From positions 1 to 42,189 of the forward strand of contig NZ_CAKRGI010000021.1 of NCBI RefSeq assembly GCF_934330165.1: DNA of 42,189 nucleotides. The letters run 5' to 3'. Numbering within the stretch: position 1 is the stretch's first letter; every line of letters starts with the position of its first letter. Shown here piece after piece: positions 646 through 42,189 of this stretch. Below the pieces are notes generated by a model, which did no database searches, was not told where the DNA came from, and was given only the letters and a program-made list of their open reading frames with translations. The stretch is from an uncultured Mediterraneibacter sp. (GTDB lineage: Bacteria > Bacillota > Clostridia > Lachnospirales > Lachnospiraceae). A program made the position numbers and the translations under genes.

Positions 646-704
646 AAACCGGAAGTATCGTGCCAGATCTGTAAGAAGTCTGGCACGATACTTCCGGTTT
701 TGAG
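646..704 (+). terminator. Rho-independent terminator with a perfect 22-bp stem
   Basis: The arms 646-667 and 679-700 are perfectly complementary over 22 bp with an 11-nt loop. The stem is bounded by AAACC on the left and GGTTTT on the right. It lies 16 bp after the phosphatase stop codon. The stem is longer than usual and could work in both directions. Confidence 0.85.
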
Positions 705-781: not shown

Positions 782-976
782 ATGAGCAGAAAAAGAAGAC
801 TGACAACAGAAGAGATTGAAAATCAGAAACAAATCGATGCCTGCGATTATCTGTCCAATGCAGTATCCACTCAGGATTGCACAGGACTGATTCCGTCAGC
901 ACCGGTCAGTGACGCAGAACTGGAGTCTTATGAAGAGGTGTATCATTACCAGCCTCCGAAGGTGAAGAAAAAATAA
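782..976 (+). CDS. Small conserved-looking protein of unknown function (64 aa)
   Basis: I do not recognise this protein. It is 64 residues, very hydrophilic, with a basic N-terminus (MSRKRRL), an acidic middle containing DACDYL and a DxELESYEE stretch, and a lysine-rich end (PPKVKKK). It has no signal peptide or membrane segment. Two cysteines (in DACDYL and QDCTG) lie about 13 residues apart. An excellent ribosome binding site, AGGAGG, sits 8 nt before the ATG, which argues for a real gene. It is isolated: a strong terminator lies upstream. The TAA stop codon is shared with the left end of structured repeat copy A (TAAATTTTG), so the natural end of the protein may have been altered by that insertion. 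No function is assigned. Confidence 0.7.
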   Translation: MSRKRRLTTEEIENQKQIDACDYLSNAVSTQDCTGLIPSAPVSDAELESYEEVYHYQPPKVKKK

Positions 977-1280
977 ATTTTGTATTTGTTGTGATGATAC
1001 GCTTAGAAGGCATATAAATTCTTAGTGACAGATCGGACGCGGAAATCAGAGATATTCCTTCGCAGTGCAGAGCCCGCTTTACCTCAGCCCGTTGACCGTT
1101 TGTAATTCGAAAGTGGAAATCTTCGTGCAATGGCACTCAATTTACTTTCTCTAACAAACGCTGCAAAGTGTCTTCGGAACGCTCTACGCTAATGCACCTG
1201 CTCAGGAACACCCTGCTTTCCGCTGCCGATGCACCACAAAGAAACTTTCTATTTTATAAGCGTATCACCCCAATAAATTT
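975..1280 (+). mobile_element. Structured repeat element, copy A (subtype 1, complete)
   Basis: This is a complete copy of a repeat seen five times in the window. Its ends are imperfect terminal inverted repeats: the left end reads AATTTTGTATTTGTTG and then GATACGCTTA, and the right end carries TAAGCGTATC then CCCCAATAAATT. A TA dinucleotide flanks each end (974-975 and 1280-1281), as expected for TA-targeting elements. Internally, 1039-1069 pairs with 1193-1223, and 1097-1103 pairs with 1154-1160 around a smaller hairpin capped by GTGC-AATG-GCAC. A C-UUCG-G hairpin follows near 1168-1182. There is no coding capacity; the short antisense frame through it is not a gene. The left end shares its stop codon with the small upstream gene and the right end with the Rpn gene. 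Confidence 0.8.
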
Positions 1281-2295
1281 ATCCAACTACAGCCAATATC
1301 TTGCTGATTCCATCAACCGATTCTCTTAGTACTGCTGCAATTGCATCCAAAGAATAACCAAGCTTTTGCATTTGCCGGGCTACCTCCTTTTTGTGGGAAG
1401 CTTTACCTTCCGCAATGCCAAGTTCTTTTCCATGAGCTTCTCCTTCCGCAATCCCCGATTGTCTGCCCTGTTCAATTCCAGTCTGAACGCCATCATTATA
1501 AATATCTTCCAGTGCTTTACACATATCCAGTTCCTCCATTTCATTCTTTTCTACGCTTATTTCCATAAGCTGACGGGAATTCAAAAATGCTCCAAGTGCA
1601 TGATAAGTCTCCAGATCCAGCTTTTGGAAATAGTCTTTATGATTTGCCACATATGTACGCAATGCGTATTTATCCTGACTACATTGTAGCATACCGAAGA
1701 TGATTTGTAAATCACTTTGAAAAGATTCTAAATTTTTCAGTCTTCTGACATCAATGAGGTTAATGTGATAATTGGGAAGATACTTTTTCATCCGTTCCGC
1801 ATGGCTTTTTTCTGTCCCAAGATCGAACATCTGATGCAGTTCTAAAGGACCATCCCATTCCTCTGTTCCATAATAGAAAACCAAAGTAATCACCGGAATG
1901 AGCTTGTCATTCTTTTGAAACCGGGAAAGAAATTCAGCCGAAGAAAGGCGGGGCGGACGTTCTTTCCATTTGACCCGCACCTGTTCTGCGTATTCCAGGC
2001 TGTCATAGAGCATTACTTTTAACGGTGCGGCATAATGAATGGCAGTTTGTGATTCCACCGCCAGCAACATCAGCACAGCCTGATCCTGCCAGTTCATAAT
2101 GATATCGCGGTATTGCTTTTTTACAACATTTTTCCCCTGAGCATCCTGAAGACTGACTGCGGTTGTCTCCGGGCTGAGGTGAAGGTTTTCCGGCAGGATC
2201 ACAGGTTTTCCCTGAAATAAAATGGCATTGAACAGGTCTGCAAACCTTTTCGTATCCTTAAGCCAAAGATTAACATTTACATCTGCTTGTCCCAT
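1279..2295 (-). CDS. Rpn family recombination-promoting nuclease / putative transposase (PD-(D/E)XK)
   Basis: This 338-residue protein belongs to the Rpn/YhgA-like family (transposase_31 type), whose members are DNA endonucleases with a PD-(D/E)XK fold that stimulate recombination. The diagnostic segment LLAVESQTAIHYAAPLKVML lies near residues 76-95 and carries the ExQ catalytic pair typical of the family. VITLVFYYG near residues 136-144 is also characteristic. The C-terminus has an EGxxxG-rich helical tail (IEQGRQSGIAEGEAHGKELG) followed by a short helical domain, the usual Rpn ending. I chose the ATG at 2295 because AAGGGGGA lies 7 nt upstream; a TTG two codons earlier is possible. The gene lies between repeat copies A and B/C. 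Its stop codon overlaps the right end of copy A. The association with repeats suggests a role in their mobility, but this is inference. Confidence 0.85.
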   Translation of the reverse strand: MGQADVNVNLWLKDTKRFADLFNAILFQGKPVILPENLHLSPETTAVSLQDAQGKNVVKKQYRDIIMNWQDQAVLMLLAVESQTAIHYAAPLKVMLYDSLEYAEQVRVKWKERPPRLSSAEFLSRFQKNDKLIPVITLVFYYGTEEWDGPLELHQMFDLGTEKSHAERMKKYLPNYHINLIDVRRLKNLESFQSDLQIIFGMLQCSQDKYALRTYVANHKDYFQKLDLETYHALGAFLNSRQLMEISVEKNEMEELDMCKALEDIYNDGVQTGIEQGRQSGIAEGEAHGKELGIAEGKASHKKEVARQMQKLGYSLDAIAAVLRESVDGISKILAVVG

Positions 2296-2393
2296 AGGCA
2301 AGTCCCCCTTAATAAAAATAAAATATTGCTATCATCAAAATGAAAATCTCTGACCGAAATGGTCTTGAAATACGAGATGCATCCGTGGCGAAT

Positions 2394-2535
2394 TTTCAGA
2401 AATTCTCTACTTATTGGACATCAGACATAGAAAACGAAAATTGAATCTGTCTGAGATTTTGATGTGAGATGAGTATAAAATAGTGTAAGAAAAAAATCAA
2501 TTAAAAGAGTTTAAAGTTTGTGTGAAATAAGTATA
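2394..2535. promoter_or_regulatory. Conserved AT-rich leader between the Rpn gene and repeat B
   Basis: This non-coding stretch is repeated near the window's other end (about 41906-42032). The block 2477-2521 is identical over 45 nt to 41974-42018, and flanking sequence is similar. It holds two TATAAAAT-like boxes (near 2474 and 2533). The second, preceded at 16 nt by TTTAAA, would start transcription rightward into repeat B. The remainder of 2302-2393 shows nothing recognisable apart from the Rpn ribosome binding site region. Confidence 0.55.
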
Positions 2536-2852
2536 AAATTTGTATTTGTTGAAGAGCATATATCCCGGCAGCAGGAAGTTTTTTTGACAGAAGAGCGTCC
2601 ATATCCGCACTTGTTGTTGCATCGCAGTGCAGGACCCGCTTTACCTCAGCCCGTTGACAACTTGTAACAGAAACGTGGAAATGCTCGTGCAAAGGCACTC
2701 GCATTTACGTTCCTTAACAAGTTGGGCAAAGTGTCTTCGGAACGCTCCCTGTCAATGCACTGCTCACGCAGCAGCAAGTGCGGATATTGGGCTTTTCAAG
2801 TCAGAAAGCGTTCCTCGCACCGGGACATTTTCTCCCAACAAATACGAAATTT
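2536..2852 (+). mobile_element. Structured repeat element, copy B (subtype 2, complete)
   Basis: The terminal inverted repeats are AAATTTGTATTTGTTG at the left and its near-complement CAACAAATACGAAATTT at the right; CCCGG and CCGGG also pair just inside. The main stem is 2601-2631 with 2756-2787, and the apical stem is 2658-2665 (CAACTTGT) with 2717-2724 (ACAAGTTG). The core GACCCGCTTTACCTCAGCCC and the segment GTGTCTTCGGAACGCTC are shared with copies A and C, but the stems use different bases that still pair. Unlike copies A, C and D, it is not flanked by TA at both ends. Confidence 0.8.
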
Positions 2853-2863
2853 CAAATAAGAAG

Positions 2864-2960
2864 TAGAAAGCCGGAAGGTTACCAACTAAGATATTATATC
2901 CTGCGTTTTGCAGGTCGTTTATCCTGGTCGATAACCATCCGGCTTCTTTCTATCGTTTTT
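2864..2960 (+). terminator. Long imperfect hairpin followed by a T-run
   Basis: The left arm at 2864-2881 (contains GAAAGCCGGAAGGTTA) pairs with the right arm at 2932-2952 (contains TAACCATCCGG and CTTTC). Inner pairing includes TATCCTGC with GCAGG. TTTTT follows at 2956-2960. It lies between repeat copies B and C and could end transcription coming through B. It could also be a separate small palindromic repeat. Confidence 0.5.
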
Positions 2961-3269
2961 AAATTTGCATTGTTGAGTGAATACGCTGCAGAGTCGGAAA
3001 AAACTTCTTACTGCGATGGGCAGCGGAAAGCAGGGTGTTCCTGAGCAGGTGCATTAGCAGGAGCGTTCCGAAGACACTTTGCAGCGTTTGTTAGAGAAAG
3101 TAAATCGAGTGCCATTGCACGAAGATTTCCACTTTCGAGTTACAAACGGTCAACGGGCTGAGGTAAAGCGGGCTCTGCACTGCGAAGGAATATCCTGCTT
3201 TCCGCGTCCGATCTGCTTTTAAAAAGTTAGCTGATTCTTTATAGCGTATCACCCCAACAAATACAAATT
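2961..3269 (-). mobile_element. Structured repeat element, copy C (subtype 1, complete, inverted)
   Basis: On the minus strand this copy starts with AATTTGTATTTGTTGGGG and GATACGCT and ends with AGCGTATTCACTCAACAATG then CAAATT. TA flanks both ends (2960-2961 and 3269-3270). It is nearly identical to copy A through the core: the GCGGAAAGCAGG arm pairs with CCTGCTTTCCGC, the CGTTTGT/ACAAACG apical stem is unchanged, and the C-UUCG-G hairpin is present. In the long stem, this copy restores pairing where copy A has mismatches (GCAGG rather than TCAGAG). Its minus-strand left end overlaps the TAA stop codon of the giant activase gene. It is inverted relative to copy A, and A and C together bracket the Rpn gene and copy B. 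Confidence 0.8.
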
Positions 3270-6200
3270 AGTTCTCTTTCTCCAGATTCTTAAACGCTGT
3301 TGACAGCATCAGTTTGATTCTGTTCAACTGGTTTACTTCACTTGCACCCGGATCGAAGTCGATGGCTACGATATTGGACTCCGGATGTCTGCGGCGGAGT
3401 TCTTTGATAACGCCCTTGCCGACTACATGGTTTGGCAGGCAGGCGAATGGCTGCGTACAAACGATATTTCCTGCACCGCTGTGGATCAGCTCCAGCATTT
3501 CTCCGGTTAAGAACCAGCCCTCACCGGTCTGATTTCCGAGTGATACGATCTCAGAAGCCATTTTCCCAAGATCTTCAATATGTGCCGGAGGATCAAAGTG
3601 TTTGCTTTGCTCAAATGCTTTTGAAGCAGGGGAACGGAACCATTCCAGTGCCTTAATACCAAGATTACCGACCGTTGCTTTTGATTTCTTCATGCCAAGA
3701 TGTGACACCTTGAAATTCTGATTATAAAAGCAGTAAAGCAGGAAGTCCAGCAGATCAGGAACGACAGCTTCTGCACCTTCGCTTTCAAGCAGCTCGGCAA
3801 GATGGTTGTTGGCAGCCGGCAGGAATTTAACAAGGATTTCTCCTACGATTCCGACACGTGGCTTTTTAATATCCAGCGTTTCAATGGTATCAAAATCATG
3901 AATGATCTCATTGCAGAGTTTTTTAAATTTTCGACGGGAAGGATAACCTTCCGATACGAATTTCTTCACGACTTCTGCCCATTTCCGGTGAACCTGGTCT
4001 GTCGTGCCGGGAACGGTCTCGTATGGACGCATCCGATAAACGCATTTCATGAAAATATCTCCAAATACAGCAGCATATAATCCACGCAGAACCAGTGCCG
4101 GAGAAAGCTTAAAGCCAGGATTCTCCTCCAGTCCGCTTAAGTTGATGGAGATGACCGGGATGTGTCCCATGCCGGCTTTTTTCAAAGCACGACGGATAAA
4201 TCCAATGTAGTTGGAGGCACGGCATCCGCCACCGGTCTGACTGATGATAACGGCTGTCTGGTTCAGGTCATATTTTCCTGAAAGCAGGGCATCCATAATC
4301 TGTCCGACTACGATCAGAGATGGATAACAGGCATCATTATTTACATATTTCAGGCCCATGTCAACGGCCTGTTTATTGTCGTTCGGAAGTACTTCAATCT
4401 TATATCCTGCTGCACAGAATGCAGGCTCAAGAAGCTCAAAGTGAACCGGTGACATCTGTGGGCAGAGGATGGTATAAGTCTTCTGCATTTCCTTTGTAAA
4501 CGGTACTTTTTCAATAGAAGACGGTCGGATCGTTCTCTGTTCCTGCTTTTTCTCACGTACACGAATCGCAGCAAGGAGAGAGCGGACACGGATTCTTGCT
4601 GCTCCCAGGTTATTGACTTCGTCAATCTTCAGTGTTGTATAAATCTTGTCTGAATTGGTCAGGATCTCAGCAACCTGATCTGTCGTTACGGCATCCAGAC
4701 CACAGCCAAAGGAATTTAACTGGATCAGATCCAGATTCTCAGTCGTCTTCACATAGTTTGCGGCTGCATAAAGTCTGGAATGGTACATCCACTGATCCAT
4801 GACATTCAGAGGGCGTTCTACCTGATGAAGGTGGGAGACGGAGTCCTCTGTCAGTACTGCAATATTGTAGGATGTAATCAGTTCAGGGAGTCCGTGGTTG
4901 ACCTCAGGGTCAATATGATAAGGACGTCCCGCCAGAACGATACCACGGTTGCCGGTCTCATTCAGGAAACGGATCGTCTCCTCTCCTTTCGTTCTCATGT
5001 CCTGACGGCAGGCTGCAAGTTCTTCCCATGCTTTATGTACAGCAGAACGGATTTCTGTATCAGAAAGGGAAAATTTCTTTCCGAGTTCGTCGATCAGACG
5101 GTAAGAGATTGTATCCTCACTTTCAAAGTTCAGGAATGGATGGATAAGATCAACTTCTCCATGCACGATCGGATCCATGTTGTTCTTAATATTTTCCGGG
5201 TAGGAAGTAACGATCGGGCAGTTATAATGGTTGTCTGAATCAGCAAATTCTTTCCGCTCATAAGGGATGGAAGGATAGAAAATGTGCTTTACTTCCTGAT
5301 TGATGAGCCACTGTACATGTCCGTGTGCAAGCTTGGCCGGATAACATTCGGATTCACTCGGGATGGATTCAATTCCAAGCTCGTAAATCTTTCTCGTAGA
5401 TGCCGGGGAAAGAACGACACGGAATCCCAGTTCAGTGAAAAATGTAAACCAGAACGGATAATTTTCATACATATTCAGAACCCGTGGGATACCGATCACT
5501 CCGCGGCGGGCATCGGCCTCTTCGAGCGGAGTATAATCAAAGTAACGATGCAGCTTATATTCAAAAAGGTTCGGCATCTGATTCTTTGACTTCTCTTTTC
5601 CAAGACCTCTCTCACAGCGGTTTCCGGTGATGAATTTACGGCCACCGCTGAAATGGTTGATCGTCAGACGGCAGGTATTGGTACATCCACGACATTTGGT
5701 CATAGTTGTAGAATATTCCAGGGAACGGATTTCATCGATGGAGAGCATGGTGGTTCCCTCGCAGTCGGTATAACGTTCTCTTGCAATCAGGGCAGCTCCG
5801 AATGCTCCCATGATCCCTGCAATGTCAGGACGGATCGCCTCGCAGTTGGCGATTTTCTCAAAGCTCCTGAGAACCGCATTATTATAGAAAGTACCACCCT
5901 GTACAACGATATGCTTACCAAGTTCAGAAGCGTCAGAAACTTTGATTACCTTGAATAAAGCATTCTTGATAACGGAGTAGGCAAGTCCGGCAGAAATATC
6001 AGCAACAGAGGCTCCTTCTTTCTGAGCCTGCTTTACTTTGGAATTCATAAATACAGTACAGCGTGTACCGAGGTCGATCGGATTCTGTGCATACAGTGCC
6101 TCCTGAGCAAAATCCTCCACAGAGTAGTTCAGGGATTTGGCGAAAGTTTCAATGAAAGAACCGCAGCCGGAAGAGCAGGCCTCGTTGAGCTGGACGCTGT

Positions 6201-7515
6201 CTACAGTCTGGTTCTTGATCTTGATACATTTCATGTCCTGCCCACCGATGTCAAGGATACAGTCTACATCCGGTTCAAAGAAAGAAGCTGCATAATAATG
6301 AGACACTGTTTCAACCTCTCCCTCATCCAGCATCAGTGCGGATTTGATCAGTGCCTCACCGTAACCGGTAGAGCATGAGTGGACAATCTCCACACCTTTA
6401 GGCAGCTGGTCATAAATATCCTTGATGGCAGAAATGGTTGTGCCAAGCGGATCTCCTTCATTATTATGATAAAAAGAATACAAAAGAGTACCGTCTTCTC
6501 CAACCAGGGCAGCTTTTGTGGTGGTAGAACCTGCATCGATTCCGAGGAATGCCTTTCCTCTGTATGTTGCAAGATCTTTTACCGGAACCTGATGCTGTGC
6601 ATGGCGTGCAGAAAATTCTTCATAGTCTTTCGTGGTTGCAAAGAGTGGATCAAGACGTTCTACCTCAAACTCCATTTTGATCTTTCCCTCAAGACGCTTT
6701 TGCATTTCAAGAAGAGCCATCGGAGTATCCTTTTTAGAATTGAGGGCAGAACCGATCGCAGCAAATAAATGAGAATGGTTCGGTGCAATAATATGCTCGT
6801 CATCCAGTTTCAGTGTACGGATGAAAGCTTCTTTCAGTTCTGAAAGGAAATGAAGCGGTCCGCCCAGGAAAGCGACGTGTCCACGGATCGGTTTACCGCA
6901 GGCAAGTCCGCTGATCGTCTGGTTGACAACTGCCTGAAAAATGGATGCAGCAAGATCTTCTCTGGCAGCACCATCGTTGATCAGTGGCTGAATATCCGTC
7001 TTTGCAAATACACCACAGCGTGCAGCGATCGAATAAAGAGCCTTATAATTTTTAGCATATTCATTCAGACCGGATGCATCGGTCTGGAGGAGAGATGCCA
7101 TCTGGTCGATAAAGGAACCTGTACCACCGGCACAGACACCATTCATACGCTGCTCGACATTTCCGCCTTCAAAATAGATGATCTTGGCATCCTCGCCGCC
7201 AAGCTCGATCGCAACATCAGTCTGTGGAGCGTAATCCTGCAGAGCTGTAGATACAGCAATGACCTCCTGCACAAAAGGTACGCCAAGATGTTTGGCGAGT
7301 GTCAGTCCGCCACTTCCTGTGATAACAGGAGAGACCTGAATCGGTCCGAGTTTGTAAATGGCACGTCCGAGAAGATCTGACAGAGTTTCCTGAATATTGG
7401 CAAAGTGACGCTCATAATCAGAGAAAAGCACTTCGTTCTCGTTGTCCAGAATGGCAATCTTAACGGTCGTAGAACCAATATCGATTCCCAAAGTATAGAG
7501 TTCTTTTGAATTCAT
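3268..7515 (-). CDS. Acyl-CoA dehydratase activase, large multidomain (BadF/BadG/HgdC type, 1415 aa)
   Basis: This protein combines parts that are separate in classical 2-hydroxyacyl-CoA dehydratase systems. Two ASKHA ATPase modules of the BadF/BadG/HgdC type are visible, starting with [11 protein letters not shown] near residue 9 and [11 protein letters not shown] near residue 324. Each has a glycine-rich GGxD segment ([16 protein letters not shown]) and a CxGG or CSSGCGSF segment that in activators contributes cysteines to a bridging 4Fe-4S cluster. A cysteine-rich [10 protein letters not shown] follows near residue 620, then a DUF2229-like and HgdB-like C-terminal half containing [12 protein letters not shown] and [16 protein letters not shown]. 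Activators of this family pump electrons into dehydratases using ATP. The substrate partner is not nearby, so the exact role is unknown. A strong promoter lies upstream on this strand. The TAA stop codon is shared with repeat copy C. Confidence 0.9.
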
Positions 7516-39671: not shown

Positions 39672-40844
39672 ATGAATAAAATGAAAAAAAGAGATTTGGA
39701 ACTGTATCTTCACATTCCTTTCTGTGTAAAAAAATGCAATTACTGTGATTTCTTCTCTGCAGCAGGAAGCAAAGAAGAGCAGGAAGCATATGTGCAGGCA
39801 ATGATACAGGAAATACGCAGCTATAAAGACAGTCTTCACTTTCATGAGGTGAAGACTGTCTTTCTTGGAGGAGGAACCCCATCCCTTCTGTCAGAAAGAC
39901 AGGCAGAACAACTTTTTCAAAGCCTGTATGATAGTTTTACAATTCAGAAAGGTGCTGAGATCACGATGGAAGTGAATCCTGGTACAGTGGATCTGGAAAA
40001 GCTGAAGCAGTATAAAGCAGTAGGCGTGAACCGTCTGAGTCTTGGATTGCAGTCAACCCGGAATGAAGAACTGCGAAGACTGGGAAGGATACACACGTAT
40101 GAAGATTTTCTTGCTACGTGGAACTTTACAGAAAAGGCAGGATTCGAGAACCGGAATATTGATCTGATGTCGGCACTTCCAGGACAGACACTAGAGTCCT
40201 GGGAGGATACGCTGGAAAAAGTGATCGCTCTTGAACCAGAGCATATATCGGCATACAGTCTGATCCTTGAAGAGGGAACAAGATTTTATCGTTGGTATCA
40301 GGAAGGAAGATTTGATTCCGGTGAATGGAAACTTCCGTCAGAGGAAGAAGAATATCAGATGGGGGAATTGACAATAGAACGGCTTGCAAAGGCAGGACTG
40401 GAACGTTATGAAATTTCAAATTATGCAAGAACGGGACGGGAATGCAGGCACAACCTGGGGTACTGGGACAGAGTGGAGTATCTTGGGATTGGTGCAGGTG
40501 CATCCTCTCTTCTCGGAAACAGAAGATTTTCACATATAAGGAACAGAAAAGCTTATATAGAAGCAGTCCATGAAAAACAGCCCATTGAAACAGAGCAAGA
40601 ACTTTTGTCAGAAGAGTCTCAGATGGAAGAATTTATGTATCTGGGCTTACGAAAAGTGAACGGGATTTCAAAAGAAAAATTTGAGCGGATTTTTCAGAAG
40701 CCGATCAGTGAGGTGTATGGAAATGTTATAGAACACTTTCAAGCAGAACATTTATTAGAATGTAAGGGAGATCGCATTTTTCTGTCTCCCAGAGGGATGG
40801 ATGTAAGTAATTACGTGCTGGCAGAGTTTTTGCTGGGAGAATAA
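39672..40844 (+). CDS. hemW: Radical SAM heme chaperone HemW
   Basis: The 390-residue protein is related to oxygen-independent coproporphyrinogen oxidase but belongs to HemW, which binds heme and hands it to client proteins. The cluster motif CVKKCNYCDFF is at residues 18-28; HemW lacks the extra HemN cysteine, as here. LGGGTPSLL, NPGTVDLEKLKQYKAVGVNRLSLGLQS and RECRHNLGYWDRVEYLGIGAGASS are family markers. The ribosome binding site is weak; ATG 39681 three codons on is an alternative. A perfect 15-bp inverted repeat lies inside the gene (39825-39863). The TAA stop codon is shared with the left end of repeat copy D. Confidence 0.94.
   Translation: MNKMKKRDLELYLHIPFCVKKCNYCDFFSAAGSKEEQEAYVQAMIQEIRSYKDSLHFHEVKTVFLGGGTPSLLSERQAEQLFQSLYDSFTIQKGAEITMEVNPGTVDLEKLKQYKAVGVNRLSLGLQSTRNEELRRLGRIHTYEDFLATWNFTEKAGFENRNIDLMSALPGQTLESWEDTLEKVIALEPEHISAYSLILEEGTRFYRWYQEGRFDSGEWKLPSEEEEYQMGELTIERLAKAGLERYEISNYARTGRECRHNLGYWDRVEYLGIGAGASSLLGNRRFSHIRNRKAYIEAVHEKQPIETEQELLSEESQMEEFMYLGLRKVNGISKEKFERIFQKPISEVYGNVIEHFQAEHLLECKGDRIFLSPRGMDVSNYVLAEFLLGE
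39825..39863 (+). repeat. Perfect 15-bp inverted repeat within the hemW coding sequence
   Basis: AAAGACAGTCTTCAC (39825-39839) pairs with GTGAAGACTGTCTTT (39849-39863) around a 9-nt loop, about 155 nt into hemW. It encodes an ordinary part of the protein near SYKDSLHFHEVKTVFLGGG. Only three T follow the right arm, so it is not a strong terminator. Confidence 0.85.
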
Positions 40845-40977
40845 ATTTGTAGTTGTTGTGATGATACGCTTAGAAGGCATATAAATTCTTAGTGACGGAT
40901 CGGACGCGGAAAGCAGGATATTCCTTCGCAGTGCAGAGCCCGCTTTACCTCAGCCCGTTGATCGTTTGTAACTCGAA
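40843..40977 (+). mobile_element. Structured repeat element, copy D (subtype 1, truncated)
   Basis: This copy is close to A from the left end (AATTTGTAGTTGTTGTGATG) to CGTTTGTAACTCGAA at 40977, where the match stops abruptly in the apical hairpin. It retains the TA plus left terminal repeat, the GCGGAAAGCAGG arm and the core GCCCGCTTTACCTCAGCCC. The right half is missing and is replaced by unrelated cargo, so pairing cannot form. Its left end overlaps the hemW stop codon. Confidence 0.8.
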
Positions 40978-41080
40978 TTGATATGGAAGATAATTAAATT
41001 CTATGTAAAGTGGCATCCTTGTCTGACTGTTTGGTGGATTTTTTGGCTTGTATTTTGTGTTTGGTCAGGAAGTAAATGTG

Positions 41081-41103
41081 AAAAGCCGCCATTAGAGGCG
41101 GCT
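41081..41103 (-). terminator. Terminator of the small-protein/GNAT-like operon
   Basis: AGCCGCC (41084-41090) pairs with GGCGGCT (41097-41103) around a 6-nt loop. On the minus strand TTTTC follows the stem. It overlaps the stop codon of the 60-residue protein. Confidence 0.7.
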
Positions 41104-41285
41104 CATTTGATTCTGAAGTCTTCAGATTCTTTATCAGTTAAAGGACGTCCTAATTTTTCAACAAGCTTTCTCATTTTCCGATAATCAAATATTTTTCCGT
41201 CTGAAGGTTCTGTCAATCTACCATCTGCTGCATACTTTTCAAGATTAATTACTTTTCCCAATTTTTTCCCTTTTGCTGCCAACAT
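41103..41285 (-). CDS. Small protein of unknown function (60 aa), downstream of a GNAT-like gene
   Basis: I do not recognise this protein. It is 60 residues, basic at the start (LAAKGKKLGKVINLEKY) and mixed charge at the end, closing with KLGRPLTDKESEDFRIK, a style of ending that occurs in small partner proteins of Lachnospiraceae. The ATG at 41285 follows AGGTG by 6 nt; a GTG three codons earlier is possible. It lies directly after the GNAT-like frame (10 bp), so the two are co-transcribed. The pairing of a small charged protein with an acetyltransferase-like protein would fit a toxin-antitoxin module, but no antitoxin DNA-binding motif is visible. Confidence 0.6.
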   Translation of the reverse strand: MLAAKGKKLGKVINLEKYAADGRLTEPSDGKIFDYRKMRKLVEKLGRPLTDKESEDFRIK

Positions 41286-41294
41286 ATACAACAC

Positions 41295-41825
41295 CTACTT
41301 TCTGATATATTTATTTAATAGTATTTCTGCTGCATCTTCAAATATAACTAATCTTCTTGGCTGCAGTTCAACAGCGTTTAGTTCCTTTTTATAATATTCT
41401 ACTAAATTTGATTTTGCTGTAAAGACAACCACTCCGTTACAATTATTTTCCAGGCTGCACTGACATGCTATTGCAAATAAATGACCTCCTACACCCTCAT
41501 ATTTTCCATTATGTCCATAATTATGAGGTGCAGTCTCCACAATATCAATATCAGCGACACCGCCATTTATTTTCAGAGCAATTCTCCCTTGTACTGCTTT
41601 ATCACCTTTTACAAACAACTCATATATTTCATAGTTATTTTTTTCAGGTAAAGTCCAATTAAATTTCCAATTTTTATAGTCGGATTGCTTAATTTTAGAA
41701 ACTCTTTTTCTGTATTCTGTCTCTACAATTTTTCCACTTGTTCGTTCAATCAAACAATCCGTAAGTCTGTCAATTAAAATATCTACGCTCAATATAGTTC
41801 TCTTTTCTTTTGTATATTGTAACAC
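41295..41825 (-). CDS. GNAT-like protein, probably 5'-truncated
   Basis: The open frame gives 176 residues from a GTG. The second half looks like a GNAT acetyltransferase core: ADIDIVETAPHNYGHNGKYEGVGGHLFAIACQCS (an acetyl-CoA loop GVGGHLF), then GVVVFTAKSNLVEYYKKELNAVE. The GTG at 41825 lacks a ribosome binding site. The same frame stays open another 23 codons upstream to 41895, reading plausibly (RIFVIGDDELPDRKIL) without a normal start, up to a TGA close to where sequence shared with the Rpn leader begins. I infer that the 5' end of the gene was lost at the junction with the repeat locus. Base composition is more AT-rich than the neighbouring genes, which suggests transfer. Confidence 0.6.
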   Translation of the reverse strand: MLQYTKEKRTILSVDILIDRLTDCLIERTSGKIVETEYRKRVSKIKQSDYKNWKFNWTLPEKNNYEIYELFVKGDKAVQGRIALKINGGVADIDIVETAPHNYGHNGKYEGVGGHLFAIACQCSLENNCNGVVVFTAKSNLVEYYKKELNAVELQPRRLVIFEDAAEILLNKYIRK

Positions 41826-41905
41826 ATCAGTAAGTATTTTTCTATCAGGTAATTCATCGTCACCAATTACAAATATCCGACTAAAGCATGTATCTCATGG
41901 GAATT

Positions 41906-42032
41906 TTCAATCAGATATCAGTCGTGAAAAATGCAAATCGGATTTGTCCGAGATTTTGTTGTGAGAAAAGTGTAAAATAGTGTAAGAAAAAAATCAATTA
42001 AAAGAGTTTAAAGTTTGTATGAAATAAGTATA
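41906..42032. promoter_or_regulatory. Conserved AT-rich leader, second copy
   Basis: This is the counterpart of 2394-2535: 41974-42018 is identical over 45 nt to 2477-2521. It precedes repeat copy E exactly as the other precedes copy B, including the TATAAAAT box at its right edge. Weak similarity to the Rpn-side leader extends to about 41886. Confidence 0.6.
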
Positions 42033-42189
42033 AAATTTGTAGTTGTTGGGGGGAAAATATCTCGGCAGTAGAAAGTATCTGATGAAAAAACGTTCATATC
42101 CGCACTTGTTGTTGCATCGCAGTGCAGGATCCGCTTTACCTCAGCCCGTTGACAACTTGTAACAGAAACGTGGAAATGCTCGTGCAAAG
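42033..42189 (+). mobile_element. Structured repeat element, copy E (subtype 2, cut by the window end)
   Basis: The left end AAATTTGTAGTTGTTGGGGG and the ATATCCGCACTTGTTGTTGC arm (one base different) match copy B, as do the core and the start of the apical hairpin (CAACTTGTAACAGAAACGTG). The right half lies beyond the window, so its fold and right end cannot be seen. Confidence 0.75.

Follow-up and report, generated by a model that had tools for sequence, protein, structure and literature searches.

Tracts of about 300 bp that can fold into long hairpins recur directly behind genes in a contig of an uncultured Mediterraneibacter species (Lachnospiraceae), and they raise the question of what these repeats are, which of their strands folds and how they came to lie where genes end. 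Here we analyse this contig at its full length of 42,189 nucleotides (the window), together with copies of the same repeats collected from related genomes.

A widespread repeat family with a conserved fold

The core of the repeat, CCCGCTTTACCTCAGCCCGTTGA, occurs five times in the window at up to 3 mismatches, against a mean of 0.00 in 100 shuffles (Table 1). An earlier note on this DNA had described repeats of about 300 bp as one family with two subtypes, and had proposed to collect copies and build a covariance model. The family is real and far larger than the window, and both subtypes, S1 (copies A, C and D) and S2 (B and E), are supported in this species. Built from copies across genomes, the model matches A, B, C and E in the window and finds the family in 44 of the 58 sampled genomes of this gut genus. 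With a broader model, run on 397 genomes of the Lachnospiraceae, it was found in 7 from six genera outside Mediterraneibacter, and across the phylum genome G001 was the sole one matched among 398. Carrying genomes hold between one copy and dozens, and G001 has 66 long matches to S1 and S2 (34 and 32, respectively). The note knew of no named RNA family with this core; in agreement, Rfam covariance models gave only sub-threshold matches and none above the family cut-off in the stretches searched, and among the papers listed in literature searches none named the repeat family.

Table 1 Copies of the repeat and neighbouring features in the window
Feature	Position	Strand	Description
Copy A	975-1280	+	Subtype S1; 131.7 bits to covariance model; fold favoured on - strand
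Rpn-like ORF (PF04754)	1279-2301	-	Domain match
Leader	2400-2535		5′ of copy B, also 5′ of copy E; 5′ region of Rpn-like gene
Copy B	2536-2852	+	Subtype S2; complete; 151.4 bits
Linker hairpin GCCGGAAGGTTA...TAACCATCCGGC	2870-2943		Between B and C; A-rich and T-rich flanks; terminator-like by eye
Copy C	2961-3269	-	Subtype S1; complete; 127.8 bits
Copy D	40843-~40977	+	Partial S1; found by pattern search and by eye
Copy E	42033-42189	+	Partial S2; 3′ cut by window end; 47.0 bits

Each hairpin is about 250–320 bp long. The arms named in the note are present in copies B (CCGCACTTGTTGTTGC / GCAGCAGCAAGTGCGG) and C (GCGGAAAGCAGG / CCTGCTTTCCGC), but in copy A the 5′ arm, GCGGAAATCAGAG, is not exact. 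Likewise, A and C had both been called complete, which is right for C, whereas A has outer ends on both sides and is not an ordinary complete copy. Read by eye, these ends overlap two stops, at 974-976 (+), which ends a 64-aa ORF, and at 1279-1281 (-), which ends the Rpn-like ORF; the flanks match G001 loci L002 and L018. With outer ends on either side, copy A has the appearance of a hybrid that arose through an inversion with respect to G001.

Compensatory changes, from which selection on pairing had been argued, are borne out by the larger sample. Paired cells make up 93.9%, compared with 35–44% when the partners are slid, and the covariation score is 0.647, which none of 500 shuffles reached, compared with 0.085–0.159 with slid partners. 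Two-sided changes across species affect 29 of 43 pairs in an alignment of 26 sequences drawn from 95 distinct copies, and 27 of 34 pairs in a set of 37 sequences, for which the shuffle mean was 22.1 and 1 of 500 shuffles was as high; another row set comprised 102 distinct sequences of 113 rows. The internal loops are deeply conserved and read, on the antisense strand, GAGCGUUCCGAA // UGAGGURRAGCGG and UGUUAG // GUUACA.

Wobble pairs point to the antisense strand

A C-UUCG-G capped hairpin and G-U pairs had been taken as signs of RNA rather than DNA. Relatives read ATTCGG or TTTCGG at the place of the cap; they do not conserve the closing C, which defeats the UUCG argument for RNA. The pair counts do not support the G-U argument: when pairs are predicted from both strands, family S has 144 A.C against 39 G.T combinations on the sense strand, that of the note (96 sequences). 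Taking each 92% identity cluster only once gives 90 against 32 (P = 1.4e-7), and an unrelated hairpin family, S*, gives 33 A.C against 14 G.T in 13 sequences (P = 0.008), both P values being optimistic because clusters are not independent. The direction is the same by columns (25 A.C, 5 G.T) and in the 37-sequence set that includes remote genera (31 and 13, respectively). RNase P, our control, has 15 G.T against 2 A.C on its own known strand (16 sequences, from 16 of 20 loci with the class A model; class B is the wrong class for these genomes). Since A.C exceeds G.T on the sense strand, the tolerated wobbles lie on the opposite strand, and the hairpin seems to fold there, opposite to the strand chosen in the note. 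The bias is about 3 to 1, weaker than that of RNase P.

A first foldback count (276 G.T, 480 A.C) had fixed mismatches mixed in and was replaced by the both-strand pair count; in that earlier count, with the same admixture, G001-type copies alone had a slight bias (122 A.C, 98 G.T). In free folds, G.U makes up 5.8% of antisense cells in S, 9.2% in S* and 9.6% in RNase P, a share that by itself decides nothing because the folds are free and RNase P folded on the wrong strand gives 11.9%.

Paired hairpins between convergent stop codons

A same-strand stop lies 35–115 bases before the core in 89 of 111 copies, compared with 7.2–7.9% by chance, with 22 exceptions; a regular expression, which misses S*, had picked out 120 copies, and 111 of them were used. 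A separate orientation analysis, which took in 95 of 113 matches, likewise had the copies in sense orientation behind the stop. At the 56 located ends in G001, an ORF was callable at 37; its stop ends at −4 to +2 of the terminus in 29 of these and overlaps the terminus in 22, and where both ends of a locus were callable both stops end at −11 to +2 in 9 of 10 loci. Within the window, the outer end of copy C overlaps the stop (3268-3270) of a CoA-activase-like gene (3268-7515, -), and copy D overlaps the stop (40842-40844) of the ORF at 39672-40844. Copy D is broken near the hairpin apex, and G001 carries a full S1 at its site (L012/L037). The upstream genes are diverse, including glmM, pyrG, sigK and glgD; among 27 listed, 20 were tested and 19 had a family match.

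Neighbouring copies stand tail to tail in 16 of 16 pairs, and of the 91 copies that allowed the test, 80 face a convergent ORF no more than 900 bases away. The two hairpins of a pair differ from each other and are arranged around a palindromic linker between convergent genes, with palindromic linkers at the same position in other species. A further exception to the placement is an opposite-orientation copy at locus L246, between genes that by eye resemble pgk and tpi. In another genus, genome G479 has a similar paired arrangement with a weak second hairpin (14.8–16.7 bits, E 0.001–0.005). To judge by its look, the linker may act as a two-way terminator. A terminator scan, which allowed loops of 3–8 only, called two small sites over the window linker, at 2900-2914 (+) and 2887-2869 (-), and 3 sites in the window region against 2.1 expected; it did not call the linker hairpin at loci L213 and L133.

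Signs of spread and candidate enzymes

Lineage-specific bursts, inversions and collapsed copies are seen, as are inverted units in related species. In a tree of 81 rows (loci assigned to species, G001-type limited to 14, and built with an expression that misses the second activase-site hairpin), 17 rows, from the window and G001, make up a private clade of their own (100/99), and another 13 rows are grouped (99/99), of which 12 represent the activase site in other species. Terminal inverted repeats are present: G001 units carry AAATTTGTA-TTGTTG at each outer end, and other species have AAATTCGTGTTTGTT. The 149 termini in the collected loci divide into 133 of S, 4 of S*, 7 edge and 5 other, and within 330 bases of them no transposase was seen, the search covering the collected loci. 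Among 1902 comparisons, 956 with the motif, the clearest empty/filled case of those listed is L124 against L224, from two species with 100% identical upstream flanks, one side being compared; those listed showed no empty/filled pair within one species. Some copies are old and vertically kept, and current mobility is therefore unproved.

Several candidate partners were rejected. TnpB-type proteins (PF07282) occur in 13 of the 58 genomes, G001 and G058 included, but were not found in the copy-rich draft genomes G005, G006 and G037 and so do not follow copy number. This also separates the family from OMEGA/TnpB guide RNAs, structured RNAs of an element end beside a variable flank. The Rpn-like ORF is not a general partner, because its relatives are limited to G001 loci among 254 loci; one scan of viral contigs had none. 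Its leader is continuous with five S2 copies in G001, which has one further separate match. Relatives of S* do not qualify as an ORF-bearing autonomous partner, the frames listed within their units being short (60–108 aa).

A proposed mobile element recognised through its fold

We favour, at a probability of about one half, a reading in which the repeats are non-autonomous, recently mobile gene-end elements, recognised by way of the antisense strand in its folded state. A putative enzyme would recognise this strand, which is antisense to the neighbouring gene, when folded on its own as RNA or single-stranded DNA, and the same enzyme would join it at a stop codon, so that the element would spread in trans. 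Two features would make the element tolerable: its A-rich end leaves TAA or TGA unbroken, and a putative two-way terminator of its own, the linker, comes along. Against this reading, no mobilising enzyme was found among the Y1 and TnpB-type proteins surveyed, and no target duplication was recognised. More tentatively, and with doubt outweighing belief, we propose that the mobile system is directed to stop codons: the enzyme would use the folded antisense strand, RNA or single-stranded DNA with conserved internal loops, to set paired hairpins precisely between convergent stops. If true, gene ends would have been rebuilt across a whole bacterial genus, and in an enzyme that recognises both fold and stop, mobile DNA would have a targeting principle of a new kind; if there is no such enzyme, selection on gene ends between convergent genes would be striking. 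Two unrelated hairpin families that share architecture, strand bias and site, the stop codon, provide a test case for the spread of palindromic repeats.

That both hairpin families have their wobble pairs on the antisense strand, and that copies sit precisely at the stop codons of convergent genes, would also suit an antisense regulatory or insulating RNA that runs from the linker, or by convergent read-through, toward the neighbour's stop and blocks or marks such read-through. A promoter-like site on the - strand at 2855-2827 (9 of 12) is placed and oriented as antisense B would require, but the 8 promoter-like sites of the window region are not clearly above chance (4.2 expected, s.d. 1.9), consensus scans called none in the L213 or L133 linkers and the lineage bursts look like spread; we consider this RNA unlikely, if a serious contender. 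An ordinary MITE, whose terminal repeats (AAATTYGTRTTTGTT) would be acted on by a conventional transposase with the fold as a by-product, seems to us still less probable. Its inverted ends, of similar sequence in several species, its bursts and its precise placement fit, but the placement is exact at a stop codon, the conserved internal loops and strand-biased wobbles suggest that the fold has a function, no larger, transposase-bearing element with these ends was seen in the collected loci, and by eye no target site duplication was recognised in the G479 or G001 flanks, for which an exact same-species empty site was lacking.

A sense-strand 3′-UTR RNA protecting or processing the mRNA of the upstream gene, as the note's strand would imply, is very improbable: the sense orientation right behind the stop means that this strand is probably transcribed, but it has fewer G.T than A.C combinations and the weaker consensus fold (−44.3 against −61.1 kcal/mol for the antisense strand; 96 sequences). 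Least credible of all, to the point of near dismissal, is kinship with REP/BIME, with a RAYT-type Y1 transposase as the mover, or else an architectural role between convergent genes. REPs are palindromes of 20–40 bp with a GTAG or CGTC tag at one end. Like the family here, they are described as palindromic and multicopy; they lie in intergenic DNA downstream of genes, often where two genes converge, and in closely spaced copies of opposite orientation (PMC3733652). The hairpins here, however, are some 300 bp long with well-conserved internal loops, and different families of them are paired stop to stop around a palindromic linker, with strand-biased wobbles. Moreover, in G001, with its many copies, Y1_Tnp is matched only once, by a 159-aa open frame that is not of RAYT size. 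Y1 proteins of about 260–310 aa, RAYT-like to judge by size, occur in copy-bearing G005 and G058 and in copy-less G023 and G052, so Y1 presence does not follow copy number, and a RAYT/Y1 partner was rejected.

Relation to other known elements

Integron attC sites lie directly behind stop codons. Their palindromic structure is conserved, and recognition requires that a single strand be folded, the bottom strand being clearly preferred (PMC4792948). The wobble pairs here are likewise on the antisense strand, but the neighbouring genes tested belong to the resident genome, in many cases to its core, rather than to cassettes, and the units are convergent pairs of about 300-bp hairpins rather than one-directional cassettes. 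EFAR elements of Enterococcus faecalis, palindromic miniature elements of a Firmicute that are reported to insert at stem-loop targets, differ from the family here in size and composition. Other palindromic repeats include ERIC and YPAL; targets of YPAL, for which recent mobility was inferred, span or adjoin dyad symmetry (PMC2229807). Inverted repeats in Escherichia coli are enriched just behind stops and are described as mostly parts of terminators (PMC6060812). Unlike such intrinsic terminators, the hairpins here are homologous over several genera and have a separate hairpin in the linker. Carriage by phages or plasmids was rejected, as plasmids gave no match to the family and viral contigs no exact match to the core pattern; four short unannotated faecal contigs labelled Bacteriophage sp. 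do match, the matches lying at a contig end or no more than 13 bases from one.

Structure and copies of the repeat

The window holds three full-length and two partial copies of the hairpin repeat (table), and its unpaired 23-base core occurs five times at up to 3 mismatches (shuffled sequence mean 0.00). The subtypes proposed in the earlier note stand, with A, C and D in one (S1) and B and E in the other (S2), although its reading of A as an ordinary complete copy does not. The flanks of A adjoin two different S1 copies (L002, L018) in the nearest genome, G001, which shares 35% of sampled 31-letter words with the window; A therefore looks like an inversion product with its junction near the hairpin centre. 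Its ends overlap the stop codons of a 64-aa ORF (974–976) and an Rpn-like ORF (1279–1281, minus strand). Copy D, whose counterpart in G001 is a full S1, is broken near the hairpin apex; beyond the break (window 40977–42033) are two small ORFs, one at 41295–41825 (minus strand) and one before that, which by eye resemble a gene pair of acetyltransferase type.

Copies of the hairpin repeat in the window
Copy	Subtype	Position	Strand	State
A	S1	975–1280	+	full-length; both ends are outer ends
B	S2	2536–2852	+	full-length
C	S1	2961–3269	-	full-length
D	S1	40843–~40977	+	partial
E	S2	42033–42189	+	partial, cut by window end

RNAalifold placed 43 pairs in an alignment of 26 sequences, 29 of them changed on both sides. 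In an antisense alignment of 37 diverse sequences, 93.9% of cells are paired, compared with 34.6–44.2% for slid partners; covariation scores 0.647 versus 0.085–0.159. The structure was itself built on this alignment, which gives it an advantage over its slid counterparts. Changes on both sides occur at 27 of 34 pairs (shuffle average 22.1). The compensatory changes first noticed among the window copies recur in both sets. The fold is one long stem with almost no branching. Two of its internal-loop regions are well conserved (antisense, GAGCGUUCCGAA // UGAGGURRAGCGG and UGUUAG // GUUACA), and a third, looser one near the stem base was recognised by eye only. The earlier note knew of no named RNA family with this core; in the stretches searched, the repeat matched no Rfam family, and none of the papers listed in literature searches named it. 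A perfect 22-base inverted repeat at window positions 646–700, behind a His_Phos_1 ORF, looks terminator-like by eye, and a miRNA family match there stays below its Rfam cut-off.

The favoured fold is antisense

A functional fold tolerates G·U and rejects A·C, so transition mismatches tell strands apart. Over 39 pairs shared by the predictions for the two strands, the sense strand, which is that of the adjoining gene and the one folded in the earlier note, carries 39 G·T versus 144 A·C in 96 sequences, 32 versus 90 with one count per 92% identity cluster (p = 1.4e-7; such clusters are not fully independent) and 5 versus 25 by columns. By this excess of A·C the favoured folding strand is antisense to the adjoining gene, and the earlier note's argument for RNA from G-U pairs on the sense strand is not supported. 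A set of 37 sequences that includes remote genera gives 31 G·T versus 13 A·C on the antisense strand, 31 versus 11 by clusters (p = 0.003) and 10 versus 3 by columns (p = 0.09).

RNase P RNA, a control of known strand, gave 15 G·T versus 2 A·C among 16 relatives and 14 versus 1 in 5 clusters. Because the ratio of the repeat is weaker than this, and an earlier foldback count of G001-type copies alone found a slight bias (98 G·T versus 122 A·C), selection may be mixed. The test fits RNA and single-stranded DNA alike. The G·U share of free folds is uninformative, because RNase P RNA folded freely on its wrong strand reaches 11.9%.

Most repeats lie at stop codons

Placement was scored in public genomes at 100 loci that carry 120 copies between them; upstream sequence was sufficient for 111. 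In 89 of these 111, an ORF of 100 aa or longer on the same strand stops 35–115 bases before the core, compared with 7.9% of positions drawn at random from these loci and 7.2% of their intergenic ones. A convergent ORF lies within 900 bases of 80 of the 91 copies for which both sides offer enough sequence. The genes upstream are unrelated to one another, and many of them are core genes (glmM, pyrG, sigK, glgD and others), as judged from 20 of the 27 listed. For G001, 56 of 66 ends were located, 37 with a callable ORF: the stop ends –4 to +2 from the terminus at 29 of the 37, the first bases of the element form part of the stop at 22, and where both ends were callable both stops fell within –11 to +2 in 9 of 10 loci. 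One remote copy (L246, 1501–1631) is oriented opposite to the rule; its flanking genes resemble pgk and tpi, named by eye.

Neighbouring copies are arranged tail to tail in 16 of 16 pairs, 14 of them 266–271 bases apart. In several species the partner is S*, a third, unrelated hairpin family missed by the models, with a palindromic linker between the two (L107, L120, L161, L163, L213, L214). S* is similar to the main repeat in its termini, strand bias and stop-codon site and unrelated in its core; its sense strand carries 14 G·T versus 33 A·C (13 sequences, p = 0.008), and its Rfam matches, to miRNA and lncRNA families, were all sub-threshold. In G479, from another genus, copies are 93–99% identical; a second hairpin faces the other way and by eye likewise follows a stop, but the model scores it weakly (14.8–16.7 bits). 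At the G009 locus L256, beside a CoA-activase-like gene, long hairpins of different sequence barely score (8.6 bits) and may represent one more family built in the same way.

Distribution and history

With 40 candidates scored for each subtype, G001 gave at least 34 long S1 matches and, at lengths from about 300 bases upward, at least 32 for S2. Among the matches listed for a degenerate core pattern, 80 record titles were mostly Mediterraneibacter, the others Ruminococcus, Lachnoclostridium, Clostridium sp. and similar labels. The model searches ran under strict filters, at the cost of weak matches. R1, a covariance model built on the core, matched in at least 44 of 58 genomes sampled within the genus, with at most 50 candidates scored per genome. 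It matched in 5 of 397 genomes family-wide (4 outside the genus) and a broader model (R2) in 9 (7 outside it, in six genera); across the phylum, R2 matched G001 alone among 398 genomes.

A survey of single loci took in the convergent site next to the CoA-activase-like gene, which occurs in 57 of 58 genomes. Of 50 such loci surveyed (30 + 20), 15 gave 25 model matches; empty sites inspected, such as L264, L268 and L291, show a stop and then a terminator-like hairpin. The unit there, host hairpin included, is inverted between related species (L262 and L280 versus L263, L265, L277, L278 and L290). Copies at L035, L092, L151, L267 and L284 have lost the apex or more and look like collapsed palindromes. 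A tree with 81 rows places the copies from the window and from G001 in a private clade (17 rows). A further 13 rows group together, of which 12 come from other species' loci at the activase site. Survey and tree together indicate a history of vertical retention plus lineage-specific amplification.

A candidate gene-end element

We give roughly even odds (about 0.5) that the repeat is a non-autonomous element of gene ends and that its antisense strand, once folded, is the form recognised. The anatomy, placement, strand bias and history are observed; on this reading an enzyme would recognise that folded strand, and the element would be joined at stop codons. Sites of the attC type are positioned behind stop codons, and EFAR repeats offer another comparison system. 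Searches for a partner among Rpn-like genes, Y1 transposases and TnpB were negative, as was a search of the collected loci for longer elements sharing the repeat ends. PMC2229807, PMC3733652, PMC4792948 and PMC6060812 served as comparison literature.

By eye the linker is terminator-like; a scan confined to loops of 3–8 called it in neither L213 nor L133, and in the window region it found 3 sites versus 2.1 expected. The weakness of the terminator claim leaves the odds of the mechanism unaffected, because the placement and strand results are independent of it. A promoter-like site at window positions 2855–2827 (minus strand) is placed so that it could make antisense B, weak evidence given 8 such sites in the region versus 4.2 expected.

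Paralogues of the Rpn-like type (PF04754; window 1279–2301) are 88–95% identical along their whole length. In G001 they occupy six sites flanked by compound units (L006/L043, L018/L031, L032/L039, L033/L248, L034/L048 and L035), as if duplicated with the help of the repeats.
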